Positions 1-17,489 of a DNA stretch of 64,000 bases are shown here, piece by piece. The notes under the pieces were generated by a model. The model did not search any database. It had not been told where the DNA came from and saw nothing but the letters and a program-made list of their open reading frames with translations. The position numbers and the translations under genes are program-made. This DNA comes from Aequorivita vitellina (GTDB taxonomy: Bacteria; Bacteroidota; Bacteroidia; Flavobacteriales; Flavobacteriaceae): NCBI RefSeq assembly GCF_022008365.1, contig NZ_JAIRBA010000004.1, forward strand, positions 1 through 64,000. Reading direction: 5' to 3'. The number at the start of each line of letters is the position of its first letter. Positions within the stretch are counted from its first letter, which is position 1.

Positions 1-120
1 GCAGTGGTTTTAGAACTAGATTATTTAATTCCTGCAGCTAAATCTTCATCTTCTGATATCTTAGGAAAACCAGCTGGTACTTATACCCAAACGGTTACCT
101 ATACTGCTACCGCACTATAA
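1..120 (+). CDS. C-terminal end of a secreted pilin / spore-coat-U-like protein (5' end outside window)
   Basis: The last 39 codons of a gene that starts before the window; the stop is TAA at 118-120. The tail is P-A-G-T-Y-T-Q-T-V-T-Y-T-A-T-A-L. An ending of the form GTYxDTVTVTxxx is typical of spore coat U domains and archaic chaperone-usher pilins, whose last strand pairs with a chaperone (family knowledge). The protein at 3840-5255 ends in a comparable strand (YSINVIYSFTAL), so the two may be exported by the same machinery. With only the tail visible, the family call is an inference. Confidence 0.6.
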   Translation, partial: AVVLELDYLIPAAKSSSSDILGKPAGTYTQTVTYTATAL

Positions 121-137
121 TTTCGGTTTTAACGCAT

Positions 138-190
138 AAAGATTCCCTAGATTACATTTTTAACGTAATTTTGGGAATCTTTCTTTATTA
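138..190 (+). terminator. Stem-loop after the partial pilin-like gene
   Basis: Arms AAAGATTCCC (138-147) and GGGAATCTTT (173-182) are a perfect 10-bp inverted repeat, extended inside by ATTAC/GTAAT, and followed by CTTTATT. It lies between the partial pilin-like gene and the chaperone gene. It could be a terminator or a partial attenuator that lets a major subunit be transcribed more than the assembly genes behind it. Confidence 0.65.
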
Positions 191-209
191 CTAAAAACCC
201 ATAAACCCT

Positions 210-1016
210 ATGCGTACCTACTTGCATTATTCTCTTATTTTATTCTTTTGTACTTGCTTCGGCCTATCAACTTTTGCACAAGGAATTTCTATGTCGCCAA
301 CACGACTTTTTTTTACTGGCAATCCTGGTGAAACCGTAAGCCAACCCGTAGTTTTAAACAATAACTCTGAAGTTGACTACATTTTCAACATAAACACAAA
401 AGACTGGAAACGAGAAGAAGACGGAAACAAAGTGTACTTTGAACCTGGCACTCTAGAAAATTCGAACGCTACTTGGATCTCCACCACTGAGTCATCCGTA
501 AGCCTTCCAGCTAAAAGCACTAAGGAAATTATTATTACCATGAAAATTCCTGCGGACGCTTCTACTTCAGCCGTAACAAATAGCATGTTATTTTTTACTC
601 AGATTGGTAAGCAAAAAGACAAAGCGGAGTTACAAAATGGAATCGGGATTATTGCTTTGTTTGAATTTGGTTTGCACGTGTACTGCACCCCACCAAACAA
701 CAGCACCTTGAGTTTAGAGATTATGAGTATTGAGGAGATCTCTGATGAAAATACTACTTCACGAAAAGTTGCAATTGGCATTGAAAACGACGGCAACGTA
801 ATAAACGACGCCACTGTAGAATTAGAATTTACAAATACTGAAACTGGTGAAGAAATTAAGCTTGAACCAATCAATATATCCATGCTTCCTGATACAAAGC
901 AAATTGTAAACTTTAACGTACCCGAAGGACTATCAGGAACTTACTTGGGAGTTGCCATTGTAAAAATGGCAGGCACCAACGATTTACGAGTCGGTGAAAA
1001 GACCTTCGCGTTTTAA
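210..1016 (+). CDS. Periplasmic PapD-like chaperone
   Basis: 268 residues with a signal peptide (hydrophobic residues about 7-23, ending FAQ). The mature protein begins GISMSPTRLFF and reads as two Ig-like domains. The first has the archaic-chaperone pattern: an S-P-T-R-L strand, then D-W-K-R-E-E-D-G, then a V-S-L-P-A-K-S-T-K strand that matches the 'lppg..q.vrl' stretch of PapD-family chaperones. The second domain spans about 150-265. By analogy it would bind fibre subunits in the periplasm and pass them to the outer-membrane protein encoded just downstream. The TAA stop is followed nine bases later by the next start in the same frame. No catalytic function is expected. The fold is inferred from strand patterns, not from a search. 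Confidence 0.65.
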   Translation: MRTYLHYSLILFFCTCFGLSTFAQGISMSPTRLFFTGNPGETVSQPVVLNNNSEVDYIFNINTKDWKREEDGNKVYFEPGTLENSNATWISTTESSVSLPAKSTKEIIITMKIPADASTSAVTNSMLFFTQIGKQKDKAELQNGIGIIALFEFGLHVYCTPPNNSTLSLEIMSIEEISDENTTSRKVAIGIENDGNVINDATVELEFTNTETGEEIKLEPINISMLPDTKQIVNFNVPEGLSGTYLGVAIVKMAGTNDLRVGEKTFAF

Positions 1017-1025
1017 AAACTACAA

Positions 1026-3827
1026 TTGATATCCCCAAACTGCATATCGTTACTTATCCTAAAAAACACAACTCCAATTTTGGTGTTTGTGCTTTTCGGC
1101 ATTTTTAATGGGTATGCTCAAGATAAAAGTCAATTAAATTTTTATTTTGAAAAAGATTCGGTTTCTGTAAAACAGGGTCAAAGTTTTATAAATTTTATTG
1201 TTCTAAAAAACAATAGCGACAAGGAGATTAGGATTGAAAATTTGGAGCCTCAGGATACCTATCCCGGTTTACTCCTTTCACCAAAAACCAGCTATACCTT
1301 AGTAAAGGGTGACGCCTTAAAACTGCCCATCAAGTTTTTAGTAAACACCGATTTTATGAAAATGAAATCGGAAACAATAACCTATCAACTCTCCTACTTC
1401 GTTGAGGGAAAAAAAGAAAACATAGCAGCTTCGTTTTTTATTGAAAGAAACGAAGAGAAGCAGATTGCGCTATATTCCTTTACGCGCGAAAACTATATTG
1501 ATCCCTCCCAGACCGAATCTACACTTTCGTTGTTTGTTGAAAACAGAGGTTATTCGCAACGTTCTATTAAACTTACTTTTCAAGGCATTCCAGATGGGCT
1601 GGAAATTCGACCAAAAGAAATTATACTCGCTCTTGAAGGACAGGAAAAAAGAATGGTGGAATTCAAGGTGACATTACAGCACCAAGGATCCTTTTTCCCA
1701 GATTACAATATAAACGTAAAGGCTACCGATTTAATTGACAACGAAGATGTAGGCAACACCTACTTACGATTAGTTATTCTTTCTAATAATAGGCAAGTTA
1801 TGCGCGGACCGGGTGCCGAGATGGGGAAAAATTTTATAGAAGTAGGTTACAACGAACAGAGCAGTGGTTTTAATTATTTACAAGTAAAAGGCAACTCAAC
1901 GTTTTCATTAGGAAAAAACACACGTGCCACGTTCAATTTGGCAACCGATTATTACTTAACCGAAAACCAATACAATCTGTACGATACTTGGTTTGAAATA
2001 GAGAAAAAGAATACCGTATACCGTATTGGAAATGTGTACGCAAACGATTATGATTATTCCGCTTCGGGGAGAGGCGGTTTGGTAAGCACCAAGATTGGCG
2101 AGAACAAGATGGTTGAAGTATTTGGTCTTGACAACAATTACAACCTTTACGGCACTTATTTTCCGGAGAATGAAGGCTCTAAAATTGCAGGTGCAAAATA
2201 CAGTTTTGGTGAATCAAAAGGCTTGCACGGAAAAGCTTCGTATATTTTTGACCATAATCCGCGTTTAGATACCGATACGCAGGTTGCCAGTTTTGCTTCT
2301 GCACTTAGTTTAAATTCACAAAACAATCTGAGTTTAGAAACGGGTATAAGTCATGAGAGAGGACTCGTAAATGACGATGAAAATATTGGAATTAGCGCTG
2401 GCTTAAATTATCAAACAAATTTTGGCAGATGGGAATTCCAGTCTATAAACGATATTGCCAGTAGCAGTTACGCGGGCTTAAACCGCGGTTCGCTTAATTT
2501 TAATCAGAATTTGGGGTACAAAGTTTCACGTATTGCGCGTTTATTTCTACAGTATCAAAACTCGCAAGTACAGCCCGAATATTTAAGTTTTCAGGAGGAG
2601 GATGTAACCATAAACATACCAAGGGAGTATCCTTATTATTATTACAGTACGCAATCGGTAAAAACAGGAACGCAGTTTTCGTTGGCTAATTGGAACTTTA
2701 CATTTTCGCCGCAAGTAGAAAAACAAAAAAGCACTTCTTCTACTTTTTCACACGAATTACTTGCCTACCGTTTTGGCACACGAGTAGGCACTTCCTTCAG
2801 CGGACAAAGCATCGATCTTTCGGCAGAATATTCGTACTCCATCCCTTCAAATAACAATGGCTTTCACAGTTTAAAAACGAACCTTTCCTATAGGTTCGGA
2901 AGTTTTTCGGTAAATGGCACTGCCCAATACAATCCAAATTCCATAATGGATTTAAATAATTACACCCAAGAAGATAAAGATTTCTTTAATTACAGTGCAT
3001 ATGCTTCCTATAATTTTCACACTATAAACAACACCTTTACAGGTTCCATTGCAGCGGGAATTAATTTTTCAGAACTATACAACAACACCAATAAAACGGT
3101 TAATGGAAACTTAGAATATAAACTCAACCGAAGTTGGTCTGCCACGGCATACGGCAATTACAATCAATACAATTCTACTTTAAATTTGGGGTACAGTGGA
3201 GATAACTATCAATTTAGGCTAGGAATTAAAAAATACTTTATTAAAGCTACTGCGATGGGTAACCACAATCTTAATTTGCAATTATTTATCGATAAAAATT
3301 TCAACGGTATTAAGGATGCTGATGAAGTTGTAATGGCTCACGAAACTGTTAAATTAGACGACTTTATTGCAATTACAGATAAAAATGGAAAAGTTCGGTT
3401 TTCAAATGTACCAAAAGGAAGTTACACTTTAAAAATTAATGAAACCGCTGGTTTACGAATGGTTACCGACCCAAGCATTTTAATAGACAGCAACAAAACG
3501 CTTAAAATTGGATTGGTAAAAAAGAACAAAGTAATTGGTAAATTGGTAGAGTTAAGGCAGCAATATGATAAGCTTGCCACATCGGTACGTGGGGTTGTTG
3601 TTTACGCGAAGGACAGTGAGGGCAACATAACGAGTACCGTAGTTGATCAAAACGATACTTTTGAATTATTTTTAGGCAATGGCAGGTACACGATTTATAT
3701 TCAAAACAACAAGTACGAATATGTAAATGCTTCGCAAAATGTGTTATTGAAAAATGAAACAAATCCAAAAACCTTAACTTTTGAATACAAAAAGAAGAAT
3801 ACTGAAATTAAGGTGAAGAAATTTTAA
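1026..3827 (+). CDS. Usher-like outer-membrane beta-barrel protein with C-terminal Ig-like domains
   Basis: 933 residues. The likely start is TTG at 1026, because a signal peptide follows (hydrophobic core about 16-30, ending GYAQ) and the next in-frame ATG lies well inside the mature protein. Residues about 35-245 look like two NEW3/COG1470-type Ig-like domains. Residues about 265-740 are dense in alternating polar/aromatic strands typical of a large transmembrane barrel. A CNA-B/SdrD-like domain follows at about 755-825 (LFIDKNFNGIKDADE, then TDKNGKVRFSNVPKGSYTL), and another beta domain ends the protein. Gene order (pilin-like, chaperone-like, barrel, surface protein) suggests an usher-type pore. 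It lacks an obvious classical usher N-terminal domain, so it may be a distinct family. Confidence 0.6.
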   Translation: MISPNCISLLILKNTTPILVFVLFGIFNGYAQDKSQLNFYFEKDSVSVKQGQSFINFIVLKNNSDKEIRIENLEPQDTYPGLLLSPKTSYTLVKGDALKLPIKFLVNTDFMKMKSETITYQLSYFVEGKKENIAASFFIERNEEKQIALYSFTRENYIDPSQTESTLSLFVENRGYSQRSIKLTFQGIPDGLEIRPKEIILALEGQEKRMVEFKVTLQHQGSFFPDYNINVKATDLIDNEDVGNTYLRLVILSNNRQVMRGPGAEMGKNFIEVGYNEQSSGFNYLQVKGNSTFSLGKNTRATFNLATDYYLTENQYNLYDTWFEIEKKNTVYRIGNVYANDYDYSASGRGGLVSTKIGENKMVEVFGLDNNYNLYGTYFPENEGSKIAGAKYSFGESKGLHGKASYIFDHNPRLDTDTQVASFASALSLNSQNNLSLETGISHERGLVNDDENIGISAGLNYQTNFGRWEFQSINDIASSSYAGLNRGSLNFNQNLGYKVSRIARLFLQYQNSQVQPEYLSFQEEDVTINIPREYPYYYYSTQSVKTGTQFSLANWNFTFSPQVEKQKSTSSTFSHELLAYRFGTRVGTSFSGQSIDLSAEYSYSIPSNNNGFHSLKTNLSYRFGSFSVNGTAQYNPNSIMDLNNYTQEDKDFFNYSAYASYNFHTINNTFTGSIAAGINFSELYNNTNKTVNGNLEYKLNRSWSATAYGNYNQYNSTLNLGYSGDNYQFRLGIKKYFIKATAMGNHNLNLQLFIDKNFNGIKDADEVVMAHETVKLDDFIAITDKNGKVRFSNVPKGSYTLKINETAGLRMVTDPSILIDSNKTLKIGLVKKNKVIGKLVELRQQYDKLATSVRGVVVYAKDSEGNITSTVVDQNDTFELFLGNGRYTIYIQNNKYEYVNASQNVLLKNETNPKTLTFEYKKKNTEIKVKKF

Positions 3828-3839
3828 AACATTGAGGAT

Positions 3840-5255
3840 ATGAAAATTTACAATTGGTTTATTTTAGGAATTTTAATATTCTTTGGTGCATCTCAGGCTG
3901 TAAATGCACAGGATGTAAATATTGTGGTGCCAGAATTAAATATCTTTAACCGTTCAGAATTTCTCACGATTCAAAATGTAATGTATGCCCAAAGAAATAC
4001 AAAGTGGCAAAAACACAATGACCCAACTATGTGGGCCTTAAGCAGTCAGAATTTTTCGCATACGACACACTCGGGAGTTTTCTTACCTAATGCTGTACTT
4101 CACTGGCAATTTAATAGCATTGGGGGAGAAGATGCGCCGCTCCAAGGCAAAGACGGGTTGCCTGGTTTTCAGCATTTCACTACAAGTCCACAGGCGTGGT
4201 ATTTTCCACACCCTTCAGGAAGATATAACCAAGGAAATATAACCTTCAAATTCAAAATGCCTGCGGATGTCTTTTTAAATAATACGTTAGTCGCTGGAAA
4301 TTATTCATTGGCTATCGGGCAAAATTATGACGACGATTTTACTCCGGCTTCCTTTAATGTAGTTATTTCCGTTCCAAAAGCCATTTGGTGGCTTACTGCC
4401 AATAATTCTGTTTATAGACAAATAAATTCGCTAAATCAATATAGGTCTGGGGGTCCACAAGTACAAGCGAGTTTGGGCGATTTTGTAATAGGAAACACTG
4501 TAGATTTTAAGTTGTTTGGAAAAAGCGCCTCTTCCACCATTCAGTTTACCTCTTCAAAAGGAGTAGAGGGAACGCGTAATGTCTCAATTATCAACCTTGG
4601 CGGGAATAGTCCTAAAATTAATACGTTACCACTTTCCGAAACATGGAAAGATTTTACCCCGTCAGATAATTTTAATGTAGAAAGTGGCAATAGGAATGAA
4701 TTTCGACTAAAAGCATCCGTATCAAAATCAGACTTTAACACGCATTTTTTTGAAGCGGGAACGTATAAGTTTCAGATCAATTTGAATGCTAAAAGTACAG
4801 ACAACAGCACTGGGGCTCAACAAAACATTGACTTTACAGTAAACGTTGTACCACTTTCTGAAATAACCATTCCCACCTCTGGCAGTTCCGTAAATTTTAA
4901 TTTTAATACGATAGAACAATATCAAAATGGGCAAACGCAAACAATTGCCAATCAATTATTGATTTCAAACAATGAAACCTATGAGCTTAACGTTAAAACA
5001 GATGTACCATTCTTTCGGAAGTCTGGGGTGCAGTCTGATATTCCTTCAAGTATTTTAGAAGTAGGGGTAGAAGGAGGCTCACAAAATGTGGCATTATCTA
5101 CTACTTCCCAAAAAATTATCAACAACGGTACACCGGTACTCGACAAGAACTTAAATATAAAATATACCATTTCAGCTCTTGCTGCCCAATCGCTGGTAGC
5201 AAAAGAAAAAAGCACCTACTCTATTAACGTTATATACAGTTTTACTGCCCTATAA
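3840..5255 (+). CDS. Secreted surface protein, possible tip adhesin or minor fibre subunit
   Basis: 471 residues with a signal peptide (core about 8-20, ending VNAQ). The mature protein is beta-rich and Trp/Asn/Ser-rich, with no T9SS sorting domain and no lipobox. Two halves can be suggested: a unique N-terminal part to about residue 220 and a C-terminal beta domain (about 230-471). The end, K-S-T-Y-S-I-N-V-I-Y-S-F-T-A-L, has the alternating pattern of a pilin last strand and matches the tail of the partial gene at 1-120. A large two-domain subunit as the last gene of the cassette is how tip adhesins are often arranged. The start is 12 bases after the barrel gene. Function is inferred from context only. 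Confidence 0.5.
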   Translation: MKIYNWFILGILIFFGASQAVNAQDVNIVVPELNIFNRSEFLTIQNVMYAQRNTKWQKHNDPTMWALSSQNFSHTTHSGVFLPNAVLHWQFNSIGGEDAPLQGKDGLPGFQHFTTSPQAWYFPHPSGRYNQGNITFKFKMPADVFLNNTLVAGNYSLAIGQNYDDDFTPASFNVVISVPKAIWWLTANNSVYRQINSLNQYRSGGPQVQASLGDFVIGNTVDFKLFGKSASSTIQFTSSKGVEGTRNVSIINLGGNSPKINTLPLSETWKDFTPSDNFNVESGNRNEFRLKASVSKSDFNTHFFEAGTYKFQINLNAKSTDNSTGAQQNIDFTVNVVPLSEITIPTSGSSVNFNFNTIEQYQNGQTQTIANQLLISNNETYELNVKTDVPFFRKSGVQSDIPSSILEVGVEGGSQNVALSTTSQKIINNGTPVLDKNLNIKYTISALAAQSLVAKEKSTYSINVIYSFTAL

Positions 5256-5274: not shown

Positions 5275-8049
5275 ATGAAAAAGATGAAAATAGTAAATCC
5301 AAAAAGTAATCCAGACCAAGATAAATCAGTCGTTAAGTTAAATATGCTCAAAAAGCGCTATGCCGAAGTTTTTGACTATTTGCTTTTTTCGGTTTCAGAA
5401 ATGATCGATATGCGTTTATGCACCATTACTATCAGAGACGAAGACCAAGCATTTGTTATTGCCGCTAATGACGATATCAATAAGGAGATAAGTGTGCTTA
5501 ATGCTGCCGTAAAAAACAACTTAAAAAGCACGGATAAAGATATGGATCTGGCACCCCATACGGTAACTTCATTTGATGTGAAATTTTATGAATCACTCCC
5601 AATTTTAGATTCCGAAAACGCCCGTATTGGGAGTCTAAATATCTTTGATGATAAAGAAAGAGTTTTAACCGATTTGGATAAAAGCTTTTTAAAAAAAGCG
5701 GTTGATCAAATAAACCGATGGGTAGCGAGTAAAGAAAAGGAACAGCGCTTAAGAAAACACGACAATTTATTTCAGCTCTCTAATGACTTGATTGGGATTG
5801 CTTCTTTTGAAGGAAACTTTGTAAAGATAAACCCCGCCTTTTCAAAAACACTGGGATGGACAAATGACGAAATATTGCAATCGCCCTTCAGCAATTTTTT
5901 ACACGAAGACGACAAAGAGGAAACAGCGCTTGCAATGCAGAACCTATCTTTGGGCAAGTCTGTTGTTAATTTCACCAATCGTTATAAAACAAAGAAAGGA
6001 GGCATAAAGTGGATAGAATGGACCAGCACCCCAGATATAGAGGCCGGACTTATTTTTACCATTGGCCGTGATGTTACCGAATTTGTAACAAGAGAGCAGC
6101 TACTCAAAAAAAGCGAGGAAAAGTATCACAACCTATTTGATAATATTCAGGGTATTTTAAGCATTCACGATTTAGACGGTAATTTTATTGACGTAAATGA
6201 AGCGGGCTTGGCAGCCACTGGCTACAGCCGAAAAGAGATGCAGAATTCTTCAATTTACCAATTAAGACCAGCTGAAAATCGCGATGAAATAGACGCCTAT
6301 TTAGCAGCGATTCAGGAACACGGAAAAGCGTCGGGCGAAATTTCAATTGTAAAAAAATCTGGAGAAAAGGCCATTTGGTATTTTATGAGTGCCCTAGATG
6401 AAAACGAAGCAGGAACGAAACTGGTTTTAACCAACGTAATAGATATTACCGAGCGTAAAAGAATGAGCAATGAGCTTATTCAAGCCAAGGAAGCCGCTGA
6501 AGAAGCCTATAAAGCGAAATCGGAATTTGTGGCCAATATGAGTCACGAAATTCGCACCCCTTTAAATGGGATTATCGGGTTTACCGAACTTGCGTTAGCC
6601 ACGAATTTAGACGACACCCAGAAACAGTATTTAGAAATTATCAATCAATCGGGAGTTTCGTTATTCAGTATCATTAACGACATTCTCGATTTTTCAAAGA
6701 TGGAAAGCAACAATATGAAGTTGGCCATTGACCGTATTGAAGTGGAGGAGGTAGTGTCAGAGGCATTCAATATTGTTTCGTATGGCATAAACACAAAGGG
6801 CTTGGAAATGCTTTTAGACATAGACCACAAAATACCCAGATATATTTGGGCAGATGCTATGCGCTTAAAGCAAATTTTGGTAAACCTATTAGGCAATGCT
6901 TTAAAGTTTACCGAGAAGGGGGAGATAAAACTATACGTTAACATTTTAGAAGATTATGGCAACAATAAAATGCGTTTGCGTTTTGGGGTTAGCGATACAG
7001 GTATTGGAATTCACAAAGACAAGCAGCAAGAAATATTCAATGCATTTTCGCAAGAAGACGGCAGTATTACCAAGCGTTTTGGCGGCACGGGGTTGGGTTT
7101 ATCTATTTCAAACAAGCTATTAGCCTTGGCCAACAGCACCCTGCAATTGGAAAGTGAACAAGGGAAAGGCAGTAACTTTTACTTTGACCTTGAATTTAGG
7201 GTAGAAGACGAACCGTTAGAAAACGGTCTAGCAGATATTAAAAGGGTTTTGATTGTTGATGACAATGAGAACAACAGAAAAATTTTAAGACGCATGCTGG
7301 AGATAAAAAACATTGAAGTTGAAGAAGCCGACAGCGGATTAAAAGCTTTGTTGGTTATGCTAGACAAGCCAGAGTTTGACGTAATTATCATGGATTACCA
7401 CATGCCTATTATGGACGGTCTGGAAACAATTAGAAAGATAAAGGGGCTTCAACCTGCCGAAACCCAGGAGCAGCCATTTATTGTGTTGTACAGCTCTTCA
7501 GATGACGACCAACTTCAATCTGCCTGCGACGAATTGGAGGTTACAAGCAGGCTGGTAAAACCCATTAGAATGAAGCAGATGTACCAAACCTTGGGACGTC
7601 TTAAAAATATTTCAGAAGAAAAATCGCCGGTTATAGAAGATACGTTTTCTGTACCTGCTACCTGCGATCTCAAGATTTTAGTAGCCGAGGACAACGATGT
7701 AAATATGCATTTAACAAAGCTATTTTTACAAAGTATTGTTCCCAATGCTGTAATTATTGAAGCCACAAATGGCGAAGAAGCGGTTGCAGTATATAAAAAG
7801 GAACTTCCAGATTTTGTTTTAATGGACGTACAAATGCCCACGATGAATGGTTTAGAGGCCACCCGGCAAATAAGAGCATCGGAAGCCCACGTAGAGGTAC
7901 CCATAATTGCGCTTACCGCGGGTAGTCTTCCGGGTGAAAAAGAAAAATGTCTAGAGGCTGGAATGACCGATTTTATAACAAAGCCGCTATTAAAACAGAC
8001 GTTGAGCAATATGCTTTCAAAATGGTTAGGCGAAAAAATAATGAACTAA
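5275..8049 (+). CDS. Hybrid sensor histidine kinase (GAF-PAS-PAS-HisKA-HATPase-REC-REC)
   Basis: 924 residues, no membrane segment. Order seen: a GAF-like domain (about 25-150), two PAS domains (about 160-275 and 285-400), a HisKA segment with S-H-E-I-R-T-P-L (phospho-acceptor His424), an ATPase domain with an N box (LVNLLGNALKF), G1 (DTGIGI) and G2 (GGTGLGLSI), then two receiver domains with phospho-acceptor Asp707 (IIMDYHMP) and Asp851 (VLMDVQMP). It would autophosphorylate on a cytosolic signal and pass phosphate through a multistep relay. It starts 19 bases after the surface-protein gene and is probably cotranscribed with it, so it may link fibre expression to a signal. No Hpt domain is visible nearby. 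Confidence 0.92.
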   Translation: MKKMKIVNPKSNPDQDKSVVKLNMLKKRYAEVFDYLLFSVSEMIDMRLCTITIRDEDQAFVIAANDDINKEISVLNAAVKNNLKSTDKDMDLAPHTVTSFDVKFYESLPILDSENARIGSLNIFDDKERVLTDLDKSFLKKAVDQINRWVASKEKEQRLRKHDNLFQLSNDLIGIASFEGNFVKINPAFSKTLGWTNDEILQSPFSNFLHEDDKEETALAMQNLSLGKSVVNFTNRYKTKKGGIKWIEWTSTPDIEAGLIFTIGRDVTEFVTREQLLKKSEEKYHNLFDNIQGILSIHDLDGNFIDVNEAGLAATGYSRKEMQNSSIYQLRPAENRDEIDAYLAAIQEHGKASGEISIVKKSGEKAIWYFMSALDENEAGTKLVLTNVIDITERKRMSNELIQAKEAAEEAYKAKSEFVANMSHEIRTPLNGIIGFTELALATNLDDTQKQYLEIINQSGVSLFSIINDILDFSKMESNNMKLAIDRIEVEEVVSEAFNIVSYGINTKGLEMLLDIDHKIPRYIWADAMRLKQILVNLLGNALKFTEKGEIKLYVNILEDYGNNKMRLRFGVSDTGIGIHKDKQQEIFNAFSQEDGSITKRFGGTGLGLSISNKLLALANSTLQLESEQGKGSNFYFDLEFRVEDEPLENGLADIKRVLIVDDNENNRKILRRMLEIKNIEVEEADSGLKALLVMLDKPEFDVIIMDYHMPIMDGLETIRKIKGLQPAETQEQPFIVLYSSSDDDQLQSACDELEVTSRLVKPIRMKQMYQTLGRLKNISEEKSPVIEDTFSVPATCDLKILVAEDNDVNMHLTKLFLQSIVPNAVIIEATNGEEAVAVYKKELPDFVLMDVQMPTMNGLEATRQIRASEAHVEVPIIALTAGSLPGEKEKCLEAGMTDFITKPLLKQTLSNMLSKWLGEKIMN

Positions 8050-8160: not shown

Positions 8161-8877
8161 ATGAAAAAACTCACTGAAGAAATTGAACGTTTACACGAAC
8201 AAAATGAACTAAAAACAGGATGGATTTCATTACTCACTCACGATTTTAAGGAAGCCTTTGGCAGCCTGTTGTGGACCATTGAAGCCGTTGAAAATGAAAC
8301 GATAAGCAAAGACGATTTTTTTAAATTATTAGTTCAAATAAAAAAGGATACTAAAAAAAATCTTCAAACCATTACCGACACCAACCAATGGTTACGCACC
8401 CAAATGGATAATTTTGAATTAAAAAAGTCGGAGCTTTTAGCATTGGATATGTTTATAAAGTTAAGAAAGGAATTTGAGGGGAAATTGAATAAGAAACAAA
8501 TCGATTTTCAATTTAAGGGAGATGAAAGTGTCATTTTTGAAAGCGATAAATTCTTAATTCATTATATTTTATCAAAATTTACAGACAATGCCATAAAATA
8601 TTCACATAAAAAAAGCACTATCTATTTTGAAGTCGAAAAAACAGACAAATCTGTCGTTTTATCCTTAATTGACGCGGGTACGGGGATGACGGCTTCGACG
8701 CAAAAAACGCTATTTACATTTCAAAATCCTGTTTTTCAAGGCACTGAAAAAGAAAAAGGTGCTGGATTAAGTTTGCATGTTGCAAAAAATTTCGTATTAT
8801 TGGTGCAAGGAAAAATAGAAGTTGAATCCACTGAAAATGTGGGCACAAAAATTTCTATGATTCTGCCCCTAATCTAA
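8161..8877 (+). CDS. Compact sensor-less histidine kinase
   Basis: 238 residues, soluble, no sensor domain. After a short coiled-coil start, S-L-L-T-H-D-F-K-E holds the likely phospho-acceptor His27. The ATPase part has an N box (TDNAIKYS), a G1-like LIDAGTGM and a G2-like stretch K-G-A-G-L-S-L-H-V. The missing input domain suggests activation by a partner, perhaps the hybrid kinase upstream. The response regulator starts 11 bases downstream, so the two form a two-component pair and were probably always transferred together. Confidence 0.85.
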   Translation: MKKLTEEIERLHEQNELKTGWISLLTHDFKEAFGSLLWTIEAVENETISKDDFFKLLVQIKKDTKKNLQTITDTNQWLRTQMDNFELKKSELLALDMFIKLRKEFEGKLNKKQIDFQFKGDESVIFESDKFLIHYILSKFTDNAIKYSHKKSTIYFEVEKTDKSVVLSLIDAGTGMTASTQKTLFTFQNPVFQGTEKEKGAGLSLHVAKNFVLLVQGKIEVESTENVGTKISMILPLI

Positions 8878-8888
8878 ATTGAAATATT

Positions 8889-9524
8889 ATGCATACTAGC
8901 ACTCGCATTTTAGTTGCGGATGATCATGGTATAGTGCGTATGGGGCTGGTGCAAATTATAAAGCAGCTCCGGCCACAGGCTCTCTTATCTGAGGTAGACG
9001 ATTACAAATCGCTCTCATCTCTTATCTCCCGCGAAAGTTTTGATCTTGTAATTCTAGATGTAAACATGCCCAATGGCACTTTACAACAAGCAATTGATTT
9101 TATTAAGCTGAAACAACCGGAATTAAAAATCCTTATTTTTTCTTCCCAAGACGAACATCTGTATGGTTTGCGTTATCTTAAAATGGGCGCACACGGATTT
9201 TTAAACAAGCATTCCAGCAAGGATAAAATTGACCGTGCCCTATACGCCATGCTTGAGGAAGGAAAGTTTATTAGCGAGGGAATAAAAGACACTATACTTT
9301 CAAACACTTTAAACAAGCCGCAAAAACTATCACCTTTAGAATCATTGTCTAACAGGGAGCTGGAAATTGCAAACAAATTGGTAGAAGGCTTACCGTTAAA
9401 AGAGCTTTCCAACCGTTTAAATCTTCATGCATCAACCATCAGCACCTATAAAAACAGGGTGTTCGAGAAATTAAAAATTCAATCCATTCCCGATTTAGTG
9501 GAAGTTTTAAAAATGTACGCATAA
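8889..9524 (+). CDS. NarL/FixJ-type response regulator
   Basis: 211 residues. The receiver domain has the acidic pair in VADDHG (Asp11, Asp12), phospho-acceptor Asp57 (VILDVNMP), and a Lys in LNKHSSKDK near residue 106. A LuxR-type HTH follows (about 145-205) with L-S-N-R-E-L-E-I-A and L-H-A-S-T-I-S-T-Y-K-N-R. It is a DNA-binding transcription regulator controlled by the kinase gene just upstream. Candidate targets are the surface cassette and itself. Confidence 0.92.
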   Translation: MHTSTRILVADDHGIVRMGLVQIIKQLRPQALLSEVDDYKSLSSLISRESFDLVILDVNMPNGTLQQAIDFIKLKQPELKILIFSSQDEHLYGLRYLKMGAHGFLNKHSSKDKIDRALYAMLEEGKFISEGIKDTILSNTLNKPQKLSPLESLSNRELEIANKLVEGLPLKELSNRLNLHASTISTYKNRVFEKLKIQSIPDLVEVLKMYA

Positions 9525-10873: not shown

Positions 10874-13800
10874 ATGCCATTATTTCAAACAACGGTTGTT
10901 ACTAAGTACCTCAAAACACAAGATTCAATAAAGCTTGCTGAAAAGTGGGAATTATATAAATCTCATTTTTTAAATCCTATTATTCAAGAGAATATAAGGA
11001 GCAGTAAGGAAGAGCAATACCAAGAAGGTTTTCTCCGGGATTTATTTGTTAAAATCCTGGGATATACTCTAAATCCTGAGCACAATTTTAATCTCACAAC
11101 AGAACTTAAAAATGTAAAAGACAGCAAAAAAGCTGATGGTGGAATTATTATAAAAGACAAAGTCACTGGTGTAATAGAACTTAAAGGTACTAACACTACG
11201 GATTTAGGTAAAGTAGAGGAACAAGCCTTTGGATATAAAAACAACCAATCAGGTTGTATTTATGTAATTACCTCCAATTTTGAAAAGTTGAGGTTTTATA
11301 TTGATAATGCCATTGAACATATAGAATTCAACTTATTTACCCTTAGTGAGGAAGATTTTAAATTGCTTTATTTGTGTTTAGGTTTTGAAAATGTTAAGAA
11401 TAACATTCCCAAAAAACTGAAAGACGAATCACTAAGTCAAGAGGAATTAATCACTAAACAACTCTACAAAGATTACTCCCTTTTCAAAAGAGAATTATTC
11501 CAAAACCTCTGTGAATTAAACCCGCAGTTTGAGCCATTGGAGCTTTTCAAAAAATCTCAAAAGCTACTGGATAGGTTTTTGTTTTTATTCTTTGCGGAAG
11601 ACAGAAACTTATTACCTCCTAACTCTGTTAGGGTGATTCTAAAACAATGGAAGCAGTTAAAAGAACTTGATGCTTACACTCCATTGTATGATAGGTTTAA
11701 AAAATACTTTGGGTATCTGAATACTGGTTTTAAAGGTAAACAATATGATGTATTTCCATATAATGGAGGGCTGTTTAAACCTGATGAGGTTTTAGATACT
11801 ATTCAAATAGATGATGACCTACTCTACCAACATTCTTTTAAACTCTCAGATTATGATTTTGAAAGTGAAGTAGATGTAAATATCCTTGGGCATATTTTTG
11901 AAAACTCCCTTAATGAAATAGATGAGATTACAGCCCAACTAGAAGGAAAAACTATTGATAGGGCAGATACTAAGAGAAAAAAAGATGGTGTATTCTACAC
12001 CCCCAAATACATTACAAAATACATAGTAGAAAATACCATAGGGAAGCTCTGTGAAGAAAAGAAAGCAGAACTTGATATAACAGATGAAGCATACCAGCCC
12101 GCTAAGCAAAGAAGTAGGAAAAGATTGGATAACCTCAGCATTTATAGAGATTGGCTATTACAACTCACTATATGTGATCCAGCCTGTGGTTCTGGAGCAT
12201 TTTTAAACCAAGCATTGGACTTTCTAATCAAGGAACACAGATACATTGATGAACTCTCTGCCAAGTATAACAAAGATGCATTTGTATTAAGTGATGTTGA
12301 AAAAAGTATTTTGGAGAATAACCTTTTTGGGGTTGACCTAAATGAAGAATCTGTAGAGATAGCAAAATTATCATTATGGTTAAGAACGGCACAACCTAAT
12401 AGGAAACTGAATGATTTGAGTGATAATATTAAATGTGGAAACTCTTTAATTGATGATGTAAGTGTTGCAGGAGATAGTGCTTTTAATTGGCAAAAGGAAT
12501 TTCCTCAGATATTTGATAAAGGTGGATTTGATGTGATTATTGGGAATCCTCCTTATGGAATTTTTATAGATAATGCCTCGCAAGGTTATTTTGAGGAACA
12601 TTTCCCATTGACGAATTATAAAATTAATCTTTATATCTTATTTATAGAAAGAATGTTACAAGTGTTCAACAGAGGAGTTGTTCAATTCATTATTCCAAAA
12701 TCTCTTCTATTTAATTCTTACTATAAGCTAATAAGAGAGGAATTACTTCTTAAAACCCAAATAAATGAGATTTTTACAATTACAGAAAAGGTCTTTGATG
12801 ATGCAGAAGTTGGAGGAAGTCTAATAATTAATTTTACCATTACTAATGAAGTTAAATTAAATCAAGAAATCAGATTAGCAGAAGCAAATAAAATTAATGA
12901 TTTCATTTCCACAATAGGTCTTATAGAAAGTAATCAAAGACAAGATTTTTTCTTAAGCATTCCTAATTTTGAAATTTCAATAATTGACCAAAAGGCAGGC
13001 TCTATCTTAGATAAACTATTAAAATTAAAACCATTAAGAAGTTATTATAATCTTAAAAATGGATTAAATCCAGGGAATATTAAGCATATACTTATTTCTA
13101 ATGAAAAAGGAACCCCTAATCATAAGCCTATTATATGGGGTAAGGACATTTCTAAGTATTTAATAAAATGGAGTAATGATTATATAAATTATGATGAAAA
13201 CATAGGTGATACAATTAGTCTAGATGATGTTAAATCTAAACAGGGGATGAAAAAGCAAAATAGAATTGATTTTGCCTTGAGAAATCCTGAACTTTTTGAG
13301 AATAAAAAAATCCTAATAAGAAAAACAGGAGATAAACTTATTGCATCCCTAGATTCAAAAAATTTTTATTTTGATACTCTTGTTCACGGTATTTATAAAA
13401 AGGAAAATGGTTTAAATCTTGAATGTTTATTGCCTATTATAAATTCAAAATCAGCCACTATTTTTTATAGGATATTACACGATATACAAGGGAAAGTATT
13501 TGCTAAAATTAGCCTTGATAATCTTGGCTCCTTTCCTATACCAGAAATGTCAAAAGTAGATGTTGAAAGGTTAACTATTCTAGCTAATTCTCAAACAGAA
13601 AATATTACACTATTGGATGAGATGTCTACCAAAGTTCATAGAACTCTGCAAAGAGAATTTGAGCAATTAGCCAAACTTAGTAAAAAATTAGAAAACTGGT
13701 TTGAACTAACCTATGCTGATTTTCTAAAAGAACTCAAAAAGAAAAAAATAGAACTTTCTCTTTCTCAAAAAGCAGAGTGGGAAGATTACTTTTTAGCTGA

Positions 13801-13921
13801 GCAGAAATTAGCTTTGGAAATTCAAAATAAAATAACCTCAACAGATAAAGAGATTGATGCTATGGTTTATGAGCTTTATGGGTTGAGTGAGGAGGAGATT
13901 GGGATTGTGGAGAATAGTTAA
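10874..13921 (+). CDS. Type IIG (Eco57I-like) restriction endonuclease-methyltransferase
   Basis: 1015 residues. The N-terminal part has a PD-(D/E)xK-like nuclease signature: Asp88 (KKADGG), then IELKG with Glu102 and Lys104. A helical linker leads to an N6-adenine methyltransferase: GVFYTPKYIT, motif I CDPACGSGAF (about 434-443), GVDLNEESVEIA, and catalytic motif IV NPPY (558-561). Residues about 700-1000 would be the target-recognition region and a coiled-coil end. Such single-chain enzymes cut DNA near an asymmetric site and methylate one strand. PglX of BREX also has the NPPY methyltransferase, but the visible N-terminal nuclease motif and the lack of BREX neighbours favour type IIG. AT-rich codons (ATA, AGA) differ from the core genes, which fits transfer. 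Confidence 0.88.
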   Translation: MPLFQTTVVTKYLKTQDSIKLAEKWELYKSHFLNPIIQENIRSSKEEQYQEGFLRDLFVKILGYTLNPEHNFNLTTELKNVKDSKKADGGIIIKDKVTGVIELKGTNTTDLGKVEEQAFGYKNNQSGCIYVITSNFEKLRFYIDNAIEHIEFNLFTLSEEDFKLLYLCLGFENVKNNIPKKLKDESLSQEELITKQLYKDYSLFKRELFQNLCELNPQFEPLELFKKSQKLLDRFLFLFFAEDRNLLPPNSVRVILKQWKQLKELDAYTPLYDRFKKYFGYLNTGFKGKQYDVFPYNGGLFKPDEVLDTIQIDDDLLYQHSFKLSDYDFESEVDVNILGHIFENSLNEIDEITAQLEGKTIDRADTKRKKDGVFYTPKYITKYIVENTIGKLCEEKKAELDITDEAYQPAKQRSRKRLDNLSIYRDWLLQLTICDPACGSGAFLNQALDFLIKEHRYIDELSAKYNKDAFVLSDVEKSILENNLFGVDLNEESVEIAKLSLWLRTAQPNRKLNDLSDNIKCGNSLIDDVSVAGDSAFNWQKEFPQIFDKGGFDVIIGNPPYGIFIDNASQGYFEEHFPLTNYKINLYILFIERMLQVFNRGVVQFIIPKSLLFNSYYKLIREELLLKTQINEIFTITEKVFDDAEVGGSLIINFTITNEVKLNQEIRLAEANKINDFISTIGLIESNQRQDFFLSIPNFEISIIDQKAGSILDKLLKLKPLRSYYNLKNGLNPGNIKHILISNEKGTPNHKPIIWGKDISKYLIKWSNDYINYDENIGDTISLDDVKSKQGMKKQNRIDFALRNPELFENKKILIRKTGDKLIASLDSKNFYFDTLVHGIYKKENGLNLECLLPIINSKSATIFYRILHDIQGKVFAKISLDNLGSFPIPEMSKVDVERLTILANSQTENITLLDEMSTKVHRTLQREFEQLAKLSKKLENWFELTYADFLKELKKKKIELSLSQKAEWEDYFLAEQKLALEIQNKITSTDKEIDAMVYELYGLSEEEIGIVENS

Positions 13922-14328: not shown

Positions 14329-14511
14329 ATGATTGAATTTATTAAAAATAATTTGGAATACATAGTTCCAATTGTACTAGCTCTAATTGGAGGTTCTTGG
14401 CTAGTTTACAAAAAGGTAGTTTCAAAGACTAATTCTAATGATGTTAAGCAAAAAAATATTCGCACAAAGTCTGGTGACGTGGTAGGTAGAGACAAAATTC
14501 AAAAAAAATAA
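14329..14511 (+). CDS. Small membrane protein of the ABC-3C locus with a GDVVGRDK tag
   Basis: 60 residues: one transmembrane helix (about 10-27, YIVPIVLALIGGSWLVY), then a basic linker and the tag QKNIRTKSGDVVGRDKI (41-57). The same tag with two changes is in the next protein (residues 7-23). The TAA stop overlaps the next ATG (TAATG), so translation is coupled. Tags of the type G-D-x-V-G-x-D-K recur in other bacterial conflict proteins as I recall them. The protein probably anchors the effector-like partner to the membrane, or is itself a membrane-damaging effector. Confidence 0.75.
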   Translation: MIEFIKNNLEYIVPIVLALIGGSWLVYKKVVSKTNSNDVKQKNIRTKSGDVVGRDKIQKK

Positions 14512-15083
14512 TGTCAAAAAAGGTACAACAGAAAAACATTCAGACTGAAAGTGGAGACGTAGTTGGAAGAGACAAAATTGTTAACTCCCCAAAAAAGATA
14601 AAGATTAGTCAAATAAGAAGATTATTTCAAGAATTATCAGAGGAATATGATAATAAAGATAAGATTGAAGAAATATGTTTTGAGTTGACAGAATATCAAA
14701 TAGAAAAAGATGTTATTGGATTAGATGCAAAATTAAATGATGCTGGGTGTACTGAAAATTACATTGAAGATGCCGAAATTGTAAAACAAAAGTTTGCAAA
14801 AAAACTTTATCATTATCAAGAGTATCAATCTGCACAAAGAATTTTTGTTCTTCTTCTAGCACAAGTGTCTGAATTATTTAGAGCTAAAATATTGCCTCTA
14901 CTTAATAGTGGAAAAGACGTAATAGAACTTCAAAATGACATTTATATTGAGATAATTAACCCTGTTTATGAATTGCTAAACAGAGAAGCATCTGAAGACA
15001 ATGTATTATATCTAAATCAAGCAGAAATTAAAGGAATGGTTTATTACCTGACAGGTAGATGCCATATTAAGTGGGTAGCATGA
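14511..15083 (+). CDS. ABC-3C system effector-side protein with C-terminal ABC-3C domain
   Basis: 190 residues. It begins with the tag QKNIQTESGDVVGRDKI (7-23), then an all-helical body (about 30-185) ending M-V-Y-Y-L-T-G-R-C-H-I-K-W. The 'YLTGxCHIKW' ending is what I associate with the C-terminal domains of ABC-three-component effectors, which couple a variable toxin domain to the middle component and ATPase. Here no enzymatic domain precedes it; the toxin role may sit in the 60-residue membrane protein. The stop (TGA 15081-15083) overlaps the next ATG as ATGA. Confidence 0.75.
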   Translation: MSKKVQQKNIQTESGDVVGRDKIVNSPKKIKISQIRRLFQELSEEYDNKDKIEEICFELTEYQIEKDVIGLDAKLNDAGCTENYIEDAEIVKQKFAKKLYHYQEYQSAQRIFVLLLAQVSELFRAKILPLLNSGKDVIELQNDIYIEIINPVYELLNREASEDNVLYLNQAEIKGMVYYLTGRCHIKWVA

Positions 15084-15592
15084 TTACATACAATGAAGCT
15101 TTTGACATAAATCACACTTTTTATAGAATCCTTCTATTATTAAATAAAATGGAGCAAGACTCTGTTGAATACGAACGCATTAGAATTTGGGATTTTTATA
15201 TGGCATTTCCATATGAAATTGAAAACATCAGGTTTGGAGTTAAACCTGAAGACAGACAAATTAAAAAGCTTTTCCCAAAAAAGTATAATCCCTATAGAAA
15301 AATTATAAACCCAAGAAAACTTTTTGAAAGAATGAGCCCATACCAGTTGTCAGCTTTTAATAAGCTAGCATCTTATGGGATAATAGACAAAAGTTTTCAT
15401 TCAACTGGAAGAATTAATGTTATAGATAGAAACAAACTGAAGTTAATCCTTGAGGATATGGACATTTCATTAGAAAATAGAGAGAGTAATGTTCTAAAAA
15501 TTTTAACTACATATTTTTACAATATGGACTTTTATGGCAACAATGGTCTTAAAGCCCGCACTAATTTATCAGAATTTAAATACGATGAATAA
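15080..15592 (+). CDS. ABC-three-component system middle component
   Basis: 170 residues from the ATG at 15080, chosen over the in-frame GTG at 15071 because ATG overlaps the upstream stop as ATGA. The start M-I-T-Y-N-E-A-F-D-I-N-H-T-F-Y-R-I matches how ABC-3C middle components begin. The body is helical with a winged-helix-like middle (RIRIWDFYMAFPYEI, and L-S-A-F-N-K-L-A-S-Y-G-I-I-D). In this system type the middle component bridges the ATPase and the effector protein. It is the third of four coupled genes. Confidence 0.8.
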   Translation: MITYNEAFDINHTFYRILLLLNKMEQDSVEYERIRIWDFYMAFPYEIENIRFGVKPEDRQIKKLFPKKYNPYRKIINPRKLFERMSPYQLSAFNKLASYGIIDKSFHSTGRINVIDRNKLKLILEDMDISLENRESNVLKILTTYFYNMDFYGNNGLKARTNLSEFKYDE

Positions 15593-17489
15593 TCAATTAG
15601 TTTTAAATAGTCTAAAAATCTACACAAATTCTGGAAAGGTAGCTTATTATGAGAAATTTAAGGCTGGTATAAATATTATTCGCGGTGAAAATAGTAGTGG
15701 GAAATCCACAATTTCACATTTTATCTTTTATGTTTTGGGGGGTGCTTTCAATAATTGGGTAGATGAAGCACTTGAATGCAATAGTGTTCTAGCAGAAGTA
15801 AACTTAAATGGAATTATAGCAGTTTTAAAAAGAGAAGTTTCAACATCTTCAAATCAGCCTATGTATATTTATTGGGGAGCATTAGAAGAAGCCACCAAAT
15901 CAACAGAGCCTGGTCACTGGACTAAATTTCCATATAGTGCAACGTCCAATAAAAAAAGCTTATCTAATGTTCTATTTGAAAAGTTAAACATTCCCACGGT
16001 TTATGGTGAAGCCAATATTACAATGCACCAAATTTTAAGGTTATTATATATAGACCAAGATTCTCCAACAAACTCTCTTTTCTTTTATGAACAATTTGAC
16101 ACCTCTCTTACCAGAAAGACAATAGCAGAACTGCTTTTAGGTATATATAATGAAAAACTTTATGAAAATAGATTAACCAAAAGGGAGCTAACAAAAAAGG
16201 TTGAAATACTTGAAGGAGAAATTAAGGGTATGAAGCGTCTCTCTGAAAACCCTCTTATGCTCCAACCCTCCCATCTTTTAGCAACAATTGATAGTTTAAG
16301 GTCCAATAAAGATAAAATTGCTGTTGAAATTGAAAATCTAAAGTCTAACAAAAAAAGAGCTGTATATACAAAAAAGTCAAAACTAGAATTTCAAGTACTT
16401 CAGAAAAAAGCCCTTGAATTAAGAAGGGAAGTAGAAGCTTTAGATGAAAAGATATTTTCTTTAGAATATGAAATTCAAGACACAACTTTCTTTCTTGAAA
16501 TGCTTGAAAGCAAAATTCAATCAATAAAAAATTCCTTAAAGACTAAGGAGAGATTAAATGATTTCCCATTAGTATTTTGTCCTGAATGTCTTTCATCACT
16601 GGAGAAAACCAATGAGGACAACTGTGGACTCTGCAAACAGCCTTTAGAAAGTAAGAACGCTGCCAATGCTCTAAGTAAGATGCAACAGGAAATTTCTTTT
16701 CAAATAATTGAATCAAAACGAATAAGGGAAAGACAAATTAACGAACTAGCTGACCTTCGTGCTAAAAAGGAAAAAATGGATGCTGAGTTAACTACTTCTC
16801 AAAAAGCCGTTAACCATTCAATTGAAGATGTACAAAGTGTAAGAGACGAAAGAATTGACTCTCTTTTAGTGGAAATTGGAGAAATTGATGGGCAAATAAT
16901 GCAGTTTACAACCTTACTTGAAACAGCAACTAAATTTCAGCAATTCCAAGATGACCTATTAAAACATAAGGCTAGACTTAAAGAATTAAACGAGGTAATT
17001 AAGCATCAAGAATTTGCTCAAAGTGCATTGGCAAATAGCACTTCAGAACAAATTGAAGAATTTGCTTTAGACCTTTTGCACGAAGATCTAAATAGAGAAG
17101 ATGGATTTAAGGAAGCTGAATCTCTTAAAATTGATTACGGGAGTAATGCTATCTATGTAGATGATAGACAGAAGAGGTTTTCAGCAAGTTCAAATTTTTA
17201 TTTAAAAAATACAGTGCGATTTGCATTATTTTTTGCAAGTCTTGAACTGCCGGAAATGAGGTTTCCTAGATTTATTTTATGTGATAACATGGAAGATAAT
17301 GGGATAGAAGAAAGACGGGCTAAAAACTTTCAAAGATTAATAATTAATAAAGCTGAAGCGTATCCAAAAAAATCTTATCAAATAATATACACAACTTCTT
17401 ATATACCCGAGGAATTTAATAACTCTGAATATTGTGTTGGAAAATTCTATTCAAACGAGGGTAATAATAAAACATTAAATATTTTTTAG
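15585..17489 (+). CDS. ABC-3C system SMC/Rad50-like ATPase
   Basis: 634 residues from the ATG at 15585, which overlaps the stop of the middle component (ATGAATAA); an upstream in-frame ATG at 15534 would add 17 residues lying over the other gene. Walker A is GENSSGKST (34-42). Long coiled-coil arms (about 200-330 and 370-480) surround a four-cysteine motif, CPEC (332-335) and CGLC (347-350), like a zinc hook. The signature-like region is FSASSNFYLKN and the Walker B region is FILCDNMED (about 563-571), where the usual D-E or D-S-P is replaced by D-N. It would sense DNA or phage structure and gate the effector. Confidence 0.88.
   Translation: MNNQLVLNSLKIYTNSGKVAYYEKFKAGINIIRGENSSGKSTISHFIFYVLGGAFNNWVDEALECNSVLAEVNLNGIIAVLKREVSTSSNQPMYIYWGALEEATKSTEPGHWTKFPYSATSNKKSLSNVLFEKLNIPTVYGEANITMHQILRLLYIDQDSPTNSLFFYEQFDTSLTRKTIAELLLGIYNEKLYENRLTKRELTKKVEILEGEIKGMKRLSENPLMLQPSHLLATIDSLRSNKDKIAVEIENLKSNKKRAVYTKKSKLEFQVLQKKALELRREVEALDEKIFSLEYEIQDTTFFLEMLESKIQSIKNSLKTKERLNDFPLVFCPECLSSLEKTNEDNCGLCKQPLESKNAANALSKMQQEISFQIIESKRIRERQINELADLRAKKEKMDAELTTSQKAVNHSIEDVQSVRDERIDSLLVEIGEIDGQIMQFTTLLETATKFQQFQDDLLKHKARLKELNEVIKHQEFAQSALANSTSEQIEEFALDLLHEDLNREDGFKEAESLKIDYGSNAIYVDDRQKRFSASSNFYLKNTVRFALFFASLELPEMRFPRFILCDNMEDNGIEERRAKNFQRLIINKAEAYPKKSYQIIYTTSYIPEEFNNSEYCVGKFYSNEGNNKTLNIF

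Follow-up and report, generated by a model that had tools for sequence, protein, structure and literature searches.

A probable chaperone-usher-type pilus operon with a plugless barrel protein in Aequorivita vitellina and other Bacteroidota

At the start of a contig of the flavobacterium Aequorivita vitellina, genes for a small pilin, a PapD-type chaperone, an outer-membrane barrel protein and a large candidate tip subunit follow one another in a single operon. This operon probably encodes a surface pilus built on the chaperone-usher principle, with the reservation that there are no fibre, expression or binding data. The gene set and its order, the relationships of the chaperone and of the tip and pilins (by profile and by fold), and the absence of a plug insertion from the barrel are shown. 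The chaperone-usher reading itself is an inference that draws on the operon, on the homology found by profile between this chaperone family and those of E. coli, and on the fold matches of the tip and barrel proteins. In its best-supported form the system is a diverged branch of the pathway that does not belong to the Pfam Usher family, since the barrel neither reaches the cut-off of that family nor carries a plug. The features of the locus are as follows, with positions counted in the window, i.e. the whole stretch of 64,000 nucleotides that was analysed.

1-117, + strand: 3' end of a small pilin gene, the remainder lost at the contig start
138-182, + strand: terminator-like hairpin between the last pilin and the chaperone, with a T-rich run after the stem
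210-1016, + strand: PapD-type periplasmic chaperone, 268 aa, with a signal-peptide-like start and no lipobox
1026-3827, + strand: barrel protein of the outer membrane, interpreted as a diverged usher, 933 aa, TTG start
1134-1778, + strand: Ig-like domain pair of the barrel protein (residues 37-251), weakly chaperone-like
1833-3239, + strand: beta-barrel of the barrel protein (residues 270-738), from DSSP of the AF2 model
2025-2075, + strand: IGN...GRG motif of the barrel protein (residues 334-350), resembling by eye the LGD...FRG of E. coli ushers
2097-2105, + strand: three-residue turn of the barrel protein (residues 358-360) at the plug position of classical ushers
3258-3824, + strand: C-terminal beta domains of the barrel protein (residues 745-933), the first CNA-B/SdrD_B-like, with a conserved IKVKKF end
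3840-5255, + strand: candidate three-domain tip subunit or adhesin, 471 aa
4848-5252, + strand: tip domain 3 (residues 337-471), a pilin domain; the chain ends on the last strand of the domain
5275-8049, + strand: PAS hybrid histidine kinase
8161-8877, + strand: histidine kinase, with a homologue downstream of the operon in 52 of the 59 loci described below
8889-9524, + strand: LuxR-type response regulator, with a homologue downstream of the operon in 57 of these 59 loci

The chaperone and barrel genes are separated by 9 nt and the barrel and tip genes by 12 nt, all three ORFs being on the + strand. The window starts at base 1 of its contig (C142), so the upstream side of the operon is truncated. 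The pilin remnant at 1-117 is 67% identical over its length to a pilin of a related locus, L008. A complete pilin of the source genome lies near the end of another contig (C118), and its neighbours are the genes that stand upstream of the operon in L008; the assembly therefore probably broke within pilin repeats. The original prediction, made from sequence alone, had placed a pilin tail, a chaperone, a barrel and a large two-part secreted protein in one operon. The ORF positions and the four-part cassette held; the two-part description of the secreted protein failed in part, three domains being the better fit.

A scan of named genomes gave at least 59 such loci, mostly in Chryseobacterium and also in Flavobacterium, Arenibacter, Bizionia, Aequorivita, Kaistella, Paenimyroides, Membranihabitans and others. 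Chaperone and barrel occur together in 59/59 (in L114, L117 and L118 the barrel gene is truncated or fragmented), and the pilin and the tip are each present in 58/59, both absences falling at contig ends. Since the barrels of close relatives are 45-79% identical and the chaperone-barrel pairing is constant, the operon is not a chance arrangement. Among ten more distant operons the tip precedes the barrel in five (L047-L051), follows it in one (L046) and was not recognised in four (L013, L043-L045). In a separate search of 59 genomes around the source genome, the barrel was present in seven, its own included: four of the 28 from the same genus, two from another family (50% identity) and one from the same family (25%). 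One Chryseobacterium locus, L118, has several fragmented pilins together with a fragmented barrel, tip and regulator, which reflects either decay or sequencing error.

Across the phylum, the chaperone profile matched at E <=0.001 in 138 of 395 sampled Bacteroidota genomes, representing 53 of 171 genera. This count pools the window type with chaperones of DUF4402-associated operons; many matches are of the DUF4402 type or partial, and strong window-type ones are few. A related barrel was found near the chaperone in all 16 chaperone-match loci that were opened (a hand-chosen set). The barrel profile (A1) matched 82 of the 395 genomes, many of them only through the CNA-B-like domain, and is unusable as a count. 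Viral contigs yielded no confirmed relative of the window barrel, and none was found among plasmids.

We conclude that the product of 210-1016 is a PapD-type chaperone from the homology of a wide profile (the close family plus distant members) to six E. coli PapD-type chaperones (82%, E 1e-5, 202 columns; reversed-profile control, 0.1%); its periplasmic role is inferred. The close family alone reached only 40% over 56 columns against the E. coli chaperones, the PapD_N Pfam model had no match in the source genome, and a PDB search with the first close-family alignment returned no relative. With the wide profile the first PDB match was Enterococcus faecium WxLIP1 (entries 9i25/9i1y; E 7e-12, over most of the length), followed by FaeE (E 0.036) and YadV (0.14). 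When the DUF4402-type rows were removed, WxLIP1 remained at 1.5e-5 and no PapD-type chain was left in the list. WxLIP proteins have two IgG-like domains and a strand predicted to insert into WxL (PMC10599100), so the likeness to WxLIP does not contradict a strand-donating chaperone. An arginine near the chaperone N-terminus (R32 in the window) is kept in 17 of 24 chaperones; we take it to resemble the basic anchor residue of PapD but did not use it as evidence.

Profile and fold both support pilin-type subunits and a multi-domain tip. The pilins are mostly 175-205 aa long, with a hydrophobic start followed by AQ (by eye) and an end that reads AGTYTQTVTYTATAL or similar; a regular-expression search found a lipobox in none of 29. 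Over its final 123 aligned residues (domain 3) the tip protein matches these pilins at 98.1% (E 9e-14), and domain 2 matches them weakly (69%, E 4e-5). The structural model of the tip, which had 25 pilins in its alignment, is good (pLDDT 92.3, pTM 0.80), and its eight best Foldseek chains belong to CfaB, CfaE and CsuE (E 2e-16 to 1.4e-7, TM at most 0.52), with FimH at 4e-7; overall, TM-scores are at most 0.45-0.55. In VIA-align the top match was a CfaB fusion (365 residues at rmsd 7.0 A, Z 10.3); domain 3 aligned with TLP-1a (131 residues at rmsd 3.1 A, Z 10.1) and domain 2 with the pilin CooA (135 residues at rmsd 3.0 A, Z 9.4). When pilins and tip are aligned, the mature pilin N-termini fall on the strand that closes tip domain 2 (residues 325-336). 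From this alignment we infer a natural cis-complemented tandem and take it as a hint that the donor strand is supplied by the pilin N-terminus. The strand list of domain 3 runs to the C-terminus of the model, whose coordinates were not inspected. By profile, window-type pilins did not match E. coli pilins (7-9%), and PDB searches with the first pilin alignment and with the tip/pilin set found no relative. L011 has five pilin genes between 9687 and 16817, in groups of two and three with three other ORFs in between, and the groups contain near-identical copies, suggesting recent duplication.

Is the barrel protein an usher? The AF2 model is of moderate quality (pLDDT 78.4, pTM 0.51); in it an N-terminal part rich in beta strands is followed by a barrel of about 26 strands at residues 270-738 (our own count of the DSSP list) and by C-terminal beta domains. 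In Foldseek its top nine chains are all FimD or PapC (E 1e-15 to 1.5e-12), ahead of BtuB (3e-9). TM-scores to FimD are low (0.23-0.38), and in VIA-align the top match is MtrB (Z 19.0), FimD (16.6) and OccK porins (16.2) being level with each other below it. By profile, the window-type barrels do not match E. coli ushers significantly (1-2%). In the wider set the best, non-significant alignment keeps a single register, pairing window residues ~280-354 with positions 197-274 of the usher profile, and this register appears with the whole, the barrel-only and the 5' slices of the barrel profile. A PDB search with the first barrel alignment found neither an usher nor any relative, and single-sequence searches found no relative there either. 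Pfam Usher (PF00577) had no match in the window barrel and, above its curated cut-off, none in any of the 395 sampled Bacteroidota genomes, the source genome included. There were four sub-threshold Usher matches in the 395 genomes, all from one family and all within barrel genes that neighbour a chaperone hit of the window-derived profile; of the full proteins behind them, those of L172 and L174 match Usher at E <=0.01 and those of L173 and L175 do not.

The barrel's tie to ushers is indirect, resting on the Foldseek ranking and on a set of relatives with plug-like regions, here called plugged relatives. Twenty-three of them, many with DUF4402-type subunits, have genes next to a chaperone of this family; compared with a profile built from six E. 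coli ushers, they score 98.2% (E 3.6e-14, 570 columns). Among the controls, LptD, FhuA, BtuB and FadL as single sequences gave at most 1.3%, as did the usher profile when reversed, and EcpC gave 24.8%; control depth was unequal, the barrels being single sequences while the usher profile had six members. With an earlier set of seven plugged relatives, individual E. coli ushers gave 0.2-89.8%. The window type in turn matches the 23 plugged relatives at 98.9% (E 1.3e-17, 317 columns, residues 575-921). Without the C-terminal domains, however, the window barrel slice reached only a non-significant 5.4%, whereas those domains matched at 99.0% over 171 columns. The link to the plugged relatives therefore rests mainly on the C-terminal domains, one of which is CNA-B-like and so of a kind found in many unrelated proteins. 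Because of the 5.4% result we hold the usher reading less firmly and give an unrelated barrel more weight. That the barrel domain itself is homologous to ushers remains likely but is not proven by sequence. The usher-like barrels of L173, L174, L175 and L181 carry SPOR domains; SPOR domains bind peptidoglycan. The IKVKKF end of the window barrel (3807-3824) is nearly invariant in close relatives, and several distant ones have similar basic ends.

What the window-type barrels lack is a plug insertion. It is absent from all 64 aligned (54 close, 10 distant), whose plug site is 14-16 residues long (15 in the window). The sole barrel insertion of 15 or more residues among the 64 (17 residues, in L046) lies elsewhere in the barrel; the alignment of the ten distant barrels was not otherwise checked. 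In five of six E. coli ushers a pattern search found LGD...FRG or similar ahead of the plug, and plugged relatives have IGN...GNG-like residues followed by a plug-like stretch; in the window type IGN...GRG is followed by a direct turn into the next strand. The N-terminal Ig pair occupies the place of the usher N-terminal domain but scores 0.1% by profile to E. coli ushers, and the N-terminal part of the plugged relatives does not align with it. Against chaperone profiles this pair scored 83.5% (wide/wide), 56% (close/wide) and 0.7% (close/close), with reversed profiles at or below 1.4%.

For the barrel, the original prediction fared unevenly. It had described Ig and CNA-B-like domains: the latter held (SdrD_B, residues 754-812, E 2e-7), and behind the N-terminal Ig pair there is only the strand pattern of the model and the weak profile link to the chaperone. 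It had named the lack of a 24-strand-type pore and plug in 1026-3827 as a refutation. About 26 strands were counted rather than 24. The absence of a plug insertion is an outcome against the usher reading. Its statement that the barrel is not a standard usher held, given that no genome reached the Pfam Usher cut-off. Its suggestion of a separate fibre-export family is probably too strong, because the plugged relatives tie both to ushers and to the window-type C-terminal part; it is not excluded, because the barrel domain alone has no significant match to ushers or to plugged relatives. The broader claim of a chaperone-usher principle in a flavobacterium is supported, without proof that the barrel is homologous to ushers.

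In the mechanism we propose, the chaperone would hold Sec-exported, non-lipoprotein pilins and the tip in the periplasm, and the barrel, as a diverged usher, would accept chaperone-subunit complexes and export them one after another, beginning with the tip. Each pilin would use its N-terminal strand (TTTVNITLADV-like) to displace the chaperone strand in the preceding subunit. These steps are inferred and neither the export nor the strand exchange has been shown. With no plug insertion, the pore must be gated in some other way; the N-terminal Ig pair or the C-terminal CNA-B-like domains could do so, which is speculation. The intergenic stretch 118-209 folds with an MFE of -21 kcal/mol (z -4.9), and eight of nine pilin-chaperone gaps that were folded have z <=-4.4, the exception being L121 (-0.7). 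A stem-loop before a T-rich run occurs in 44 of 56 pilin-chaperone gaps of relatives (a loose test, without a shuffled control). We infer that a hairpin after the pilin genes may hold pilin mRNA above chaperone and usher mRNA, and that the downstream kinases and LuxR regulator probably govern expression.

Three other explanations deserve consideration. One is that only the chaperone and the subunits are chaperone-usher-like and that the barrel is unrelated, whether MtrB-like, porin-like or of a family of its own. The VIA-align ranking, with MtrB on top and FimD level with porins, favours this, as does the failure of the barrel domain, compared by profile, to match either ushers or plugged relatives significantly. 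Against it, FimD and PapC lead the Foldseek ranking, and the barrels that do match ushers have the C-terminal part, the chaperone family and the place in the operon in common with the window type; linkage to the chaperone is constant and the IGN...GRG motif resembles that of ushers. On balance we consider an unrelated barrel unlikely.

A second possibility is a complex like those of WxL clusters, in which the Ig-pair protein would permanently cap small and large subunits and display them on the cell surface, without polymerisation through the barrel. WxL clusters comprise a small WxL protein, a large one with a C-terminal WxL domain, and a WxLIP (PMC10599100), a layout analogous to the small and large subunits here, and the chaperone is homologous to WxLIP1 at the E values given above, with and without the DUF4402-type rows. 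However, no C-terminal transmembrane helix was seen by eye in the 268-aa window chaperone, neither the tip nor three scanned pilins have a Pfam WxL match, and, unlike a WxL cluster, the operon has a barrel gene, which adjoins in 59/59 and 16/16 loci. We regard this reading as very improbable. The last alternative would make these proteins either T9SS cargo or fimbriae of the ordinary type V kind (FimA/Mfa). Both systems are known in Bacteroidota (for Mfa1, see PMC5789003), but none of the 29 pilins has a lipobox by regular expression, and neither the three window proteins nor the three scanned pilins have a type V or Por_Secre_tail Pfam match, so that this explanation is all but ruled out.

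A diverged chaperone-usher system therefore remains our preferred reading, and it can be set beside known ones. Classical and archaic chaperone-usher pili (Fim, Pap, Csu, CupE) share with it the gene set, a PapD-type chaperone (by the wide profile), pilin-type subunits and a multi-domain tip (by fold), and the indirect usher links. The window barrel differs from their ushers in having no plug insertion, an Ig pair in place of a recognisable N-domain, a CNA-B-like C-terminal domain and about 26 strands in the model. DUF4402-associated barrel operons, found in Bacteroidota and on plasmids of Proteobacteria, likewise keep small subunits, chaperone and barrel together, and match the window type by profile in the chaperone (99.6%, E 1e-23) and in the C-terminal part of the barrel (98.9%). 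Their barrels differ by a plug-like region, the usher alignment over 570 columns, an N-terminal part that cannot be aligned and, in some, SPOR domains. In a Polaromonas plasmid relative the order is DUF4402, hypothetical, DUF4402, 'fimbria/pilus periplasmic chaperone', barrel (PLSDB/RefSeq naming). For the tip model, Foldseek ranks the CFA/I pilus proteins CfaB/CfaE first (E 2e-16, TM 0.45), but no sequence link was found. TLP-1 and TLP-2 (PDB 9ikj, 9ikk) match the pilin profile over its N-terminal part (E 1e-5 and 2.5e-6), and among these structures tip domain 3 finds its match at Z 10.1. EcpB and EcpC, of the Ecp system related to CFA/I, gave 1.3-9.3% against window-type sets (16.5% with the C-terminal slice); E. 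coli classical chaperones and ushers themselves reach only 0.2 and 5.4% against them, so these values do not discriminate.

A bolder reading has two parts: that the window type represents a phylum-wide branch of plugless ushers with their own chaperone-like Ig pair in place of the N-domain, and that strand-donating Ig-pair chaperones form one superfamily across one- and two-membrane bacteria. The second part is suggested by chaperones homologous both to the PapD type and to Gram-positive WxLIP. Taken jointly, we think these two proposals more likely wrong than right.

In passages of two papers that name the phyla with chaperone-usher systems or ushers, Proteobacteria, Cyanobacteria and Deinococcota or Deinococcus-Thermus appear, as do Spirochaetes in one of them; Bacteroidetes are absent (PMC10104325, PMC4827864). 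We found no chaperone-usher system in Bacteroidota, and no paper on DUF4402, in the open-access literature searched (for the former by title and start of abstract, with incomplete coverage). Novelty is limited in that the chaperone-usher principle is known, a related subunit (TLP) has solved structures, and the literature coverage was incomplete. Given how widely the related chaperone is spread (138/395 genomes, 53/171 genera), there may be a class of surface fibres that has no name yet. Were the barrel a natural plugless usher, the gating of usher pores would become directly testable.

Beyond the regulatory genes, 10874-13921 encodes a Type IIG restriction enzyme-methyltransferase (PADLOC E 2e-270; Pfam Eco57I, TaqI_C), and 14511-17489 carries a Lamassu-like set consisting of an ABC-3C CTD9 protein, a weak LmuC (E 6e-5) and an LmuB (E 2e-42).
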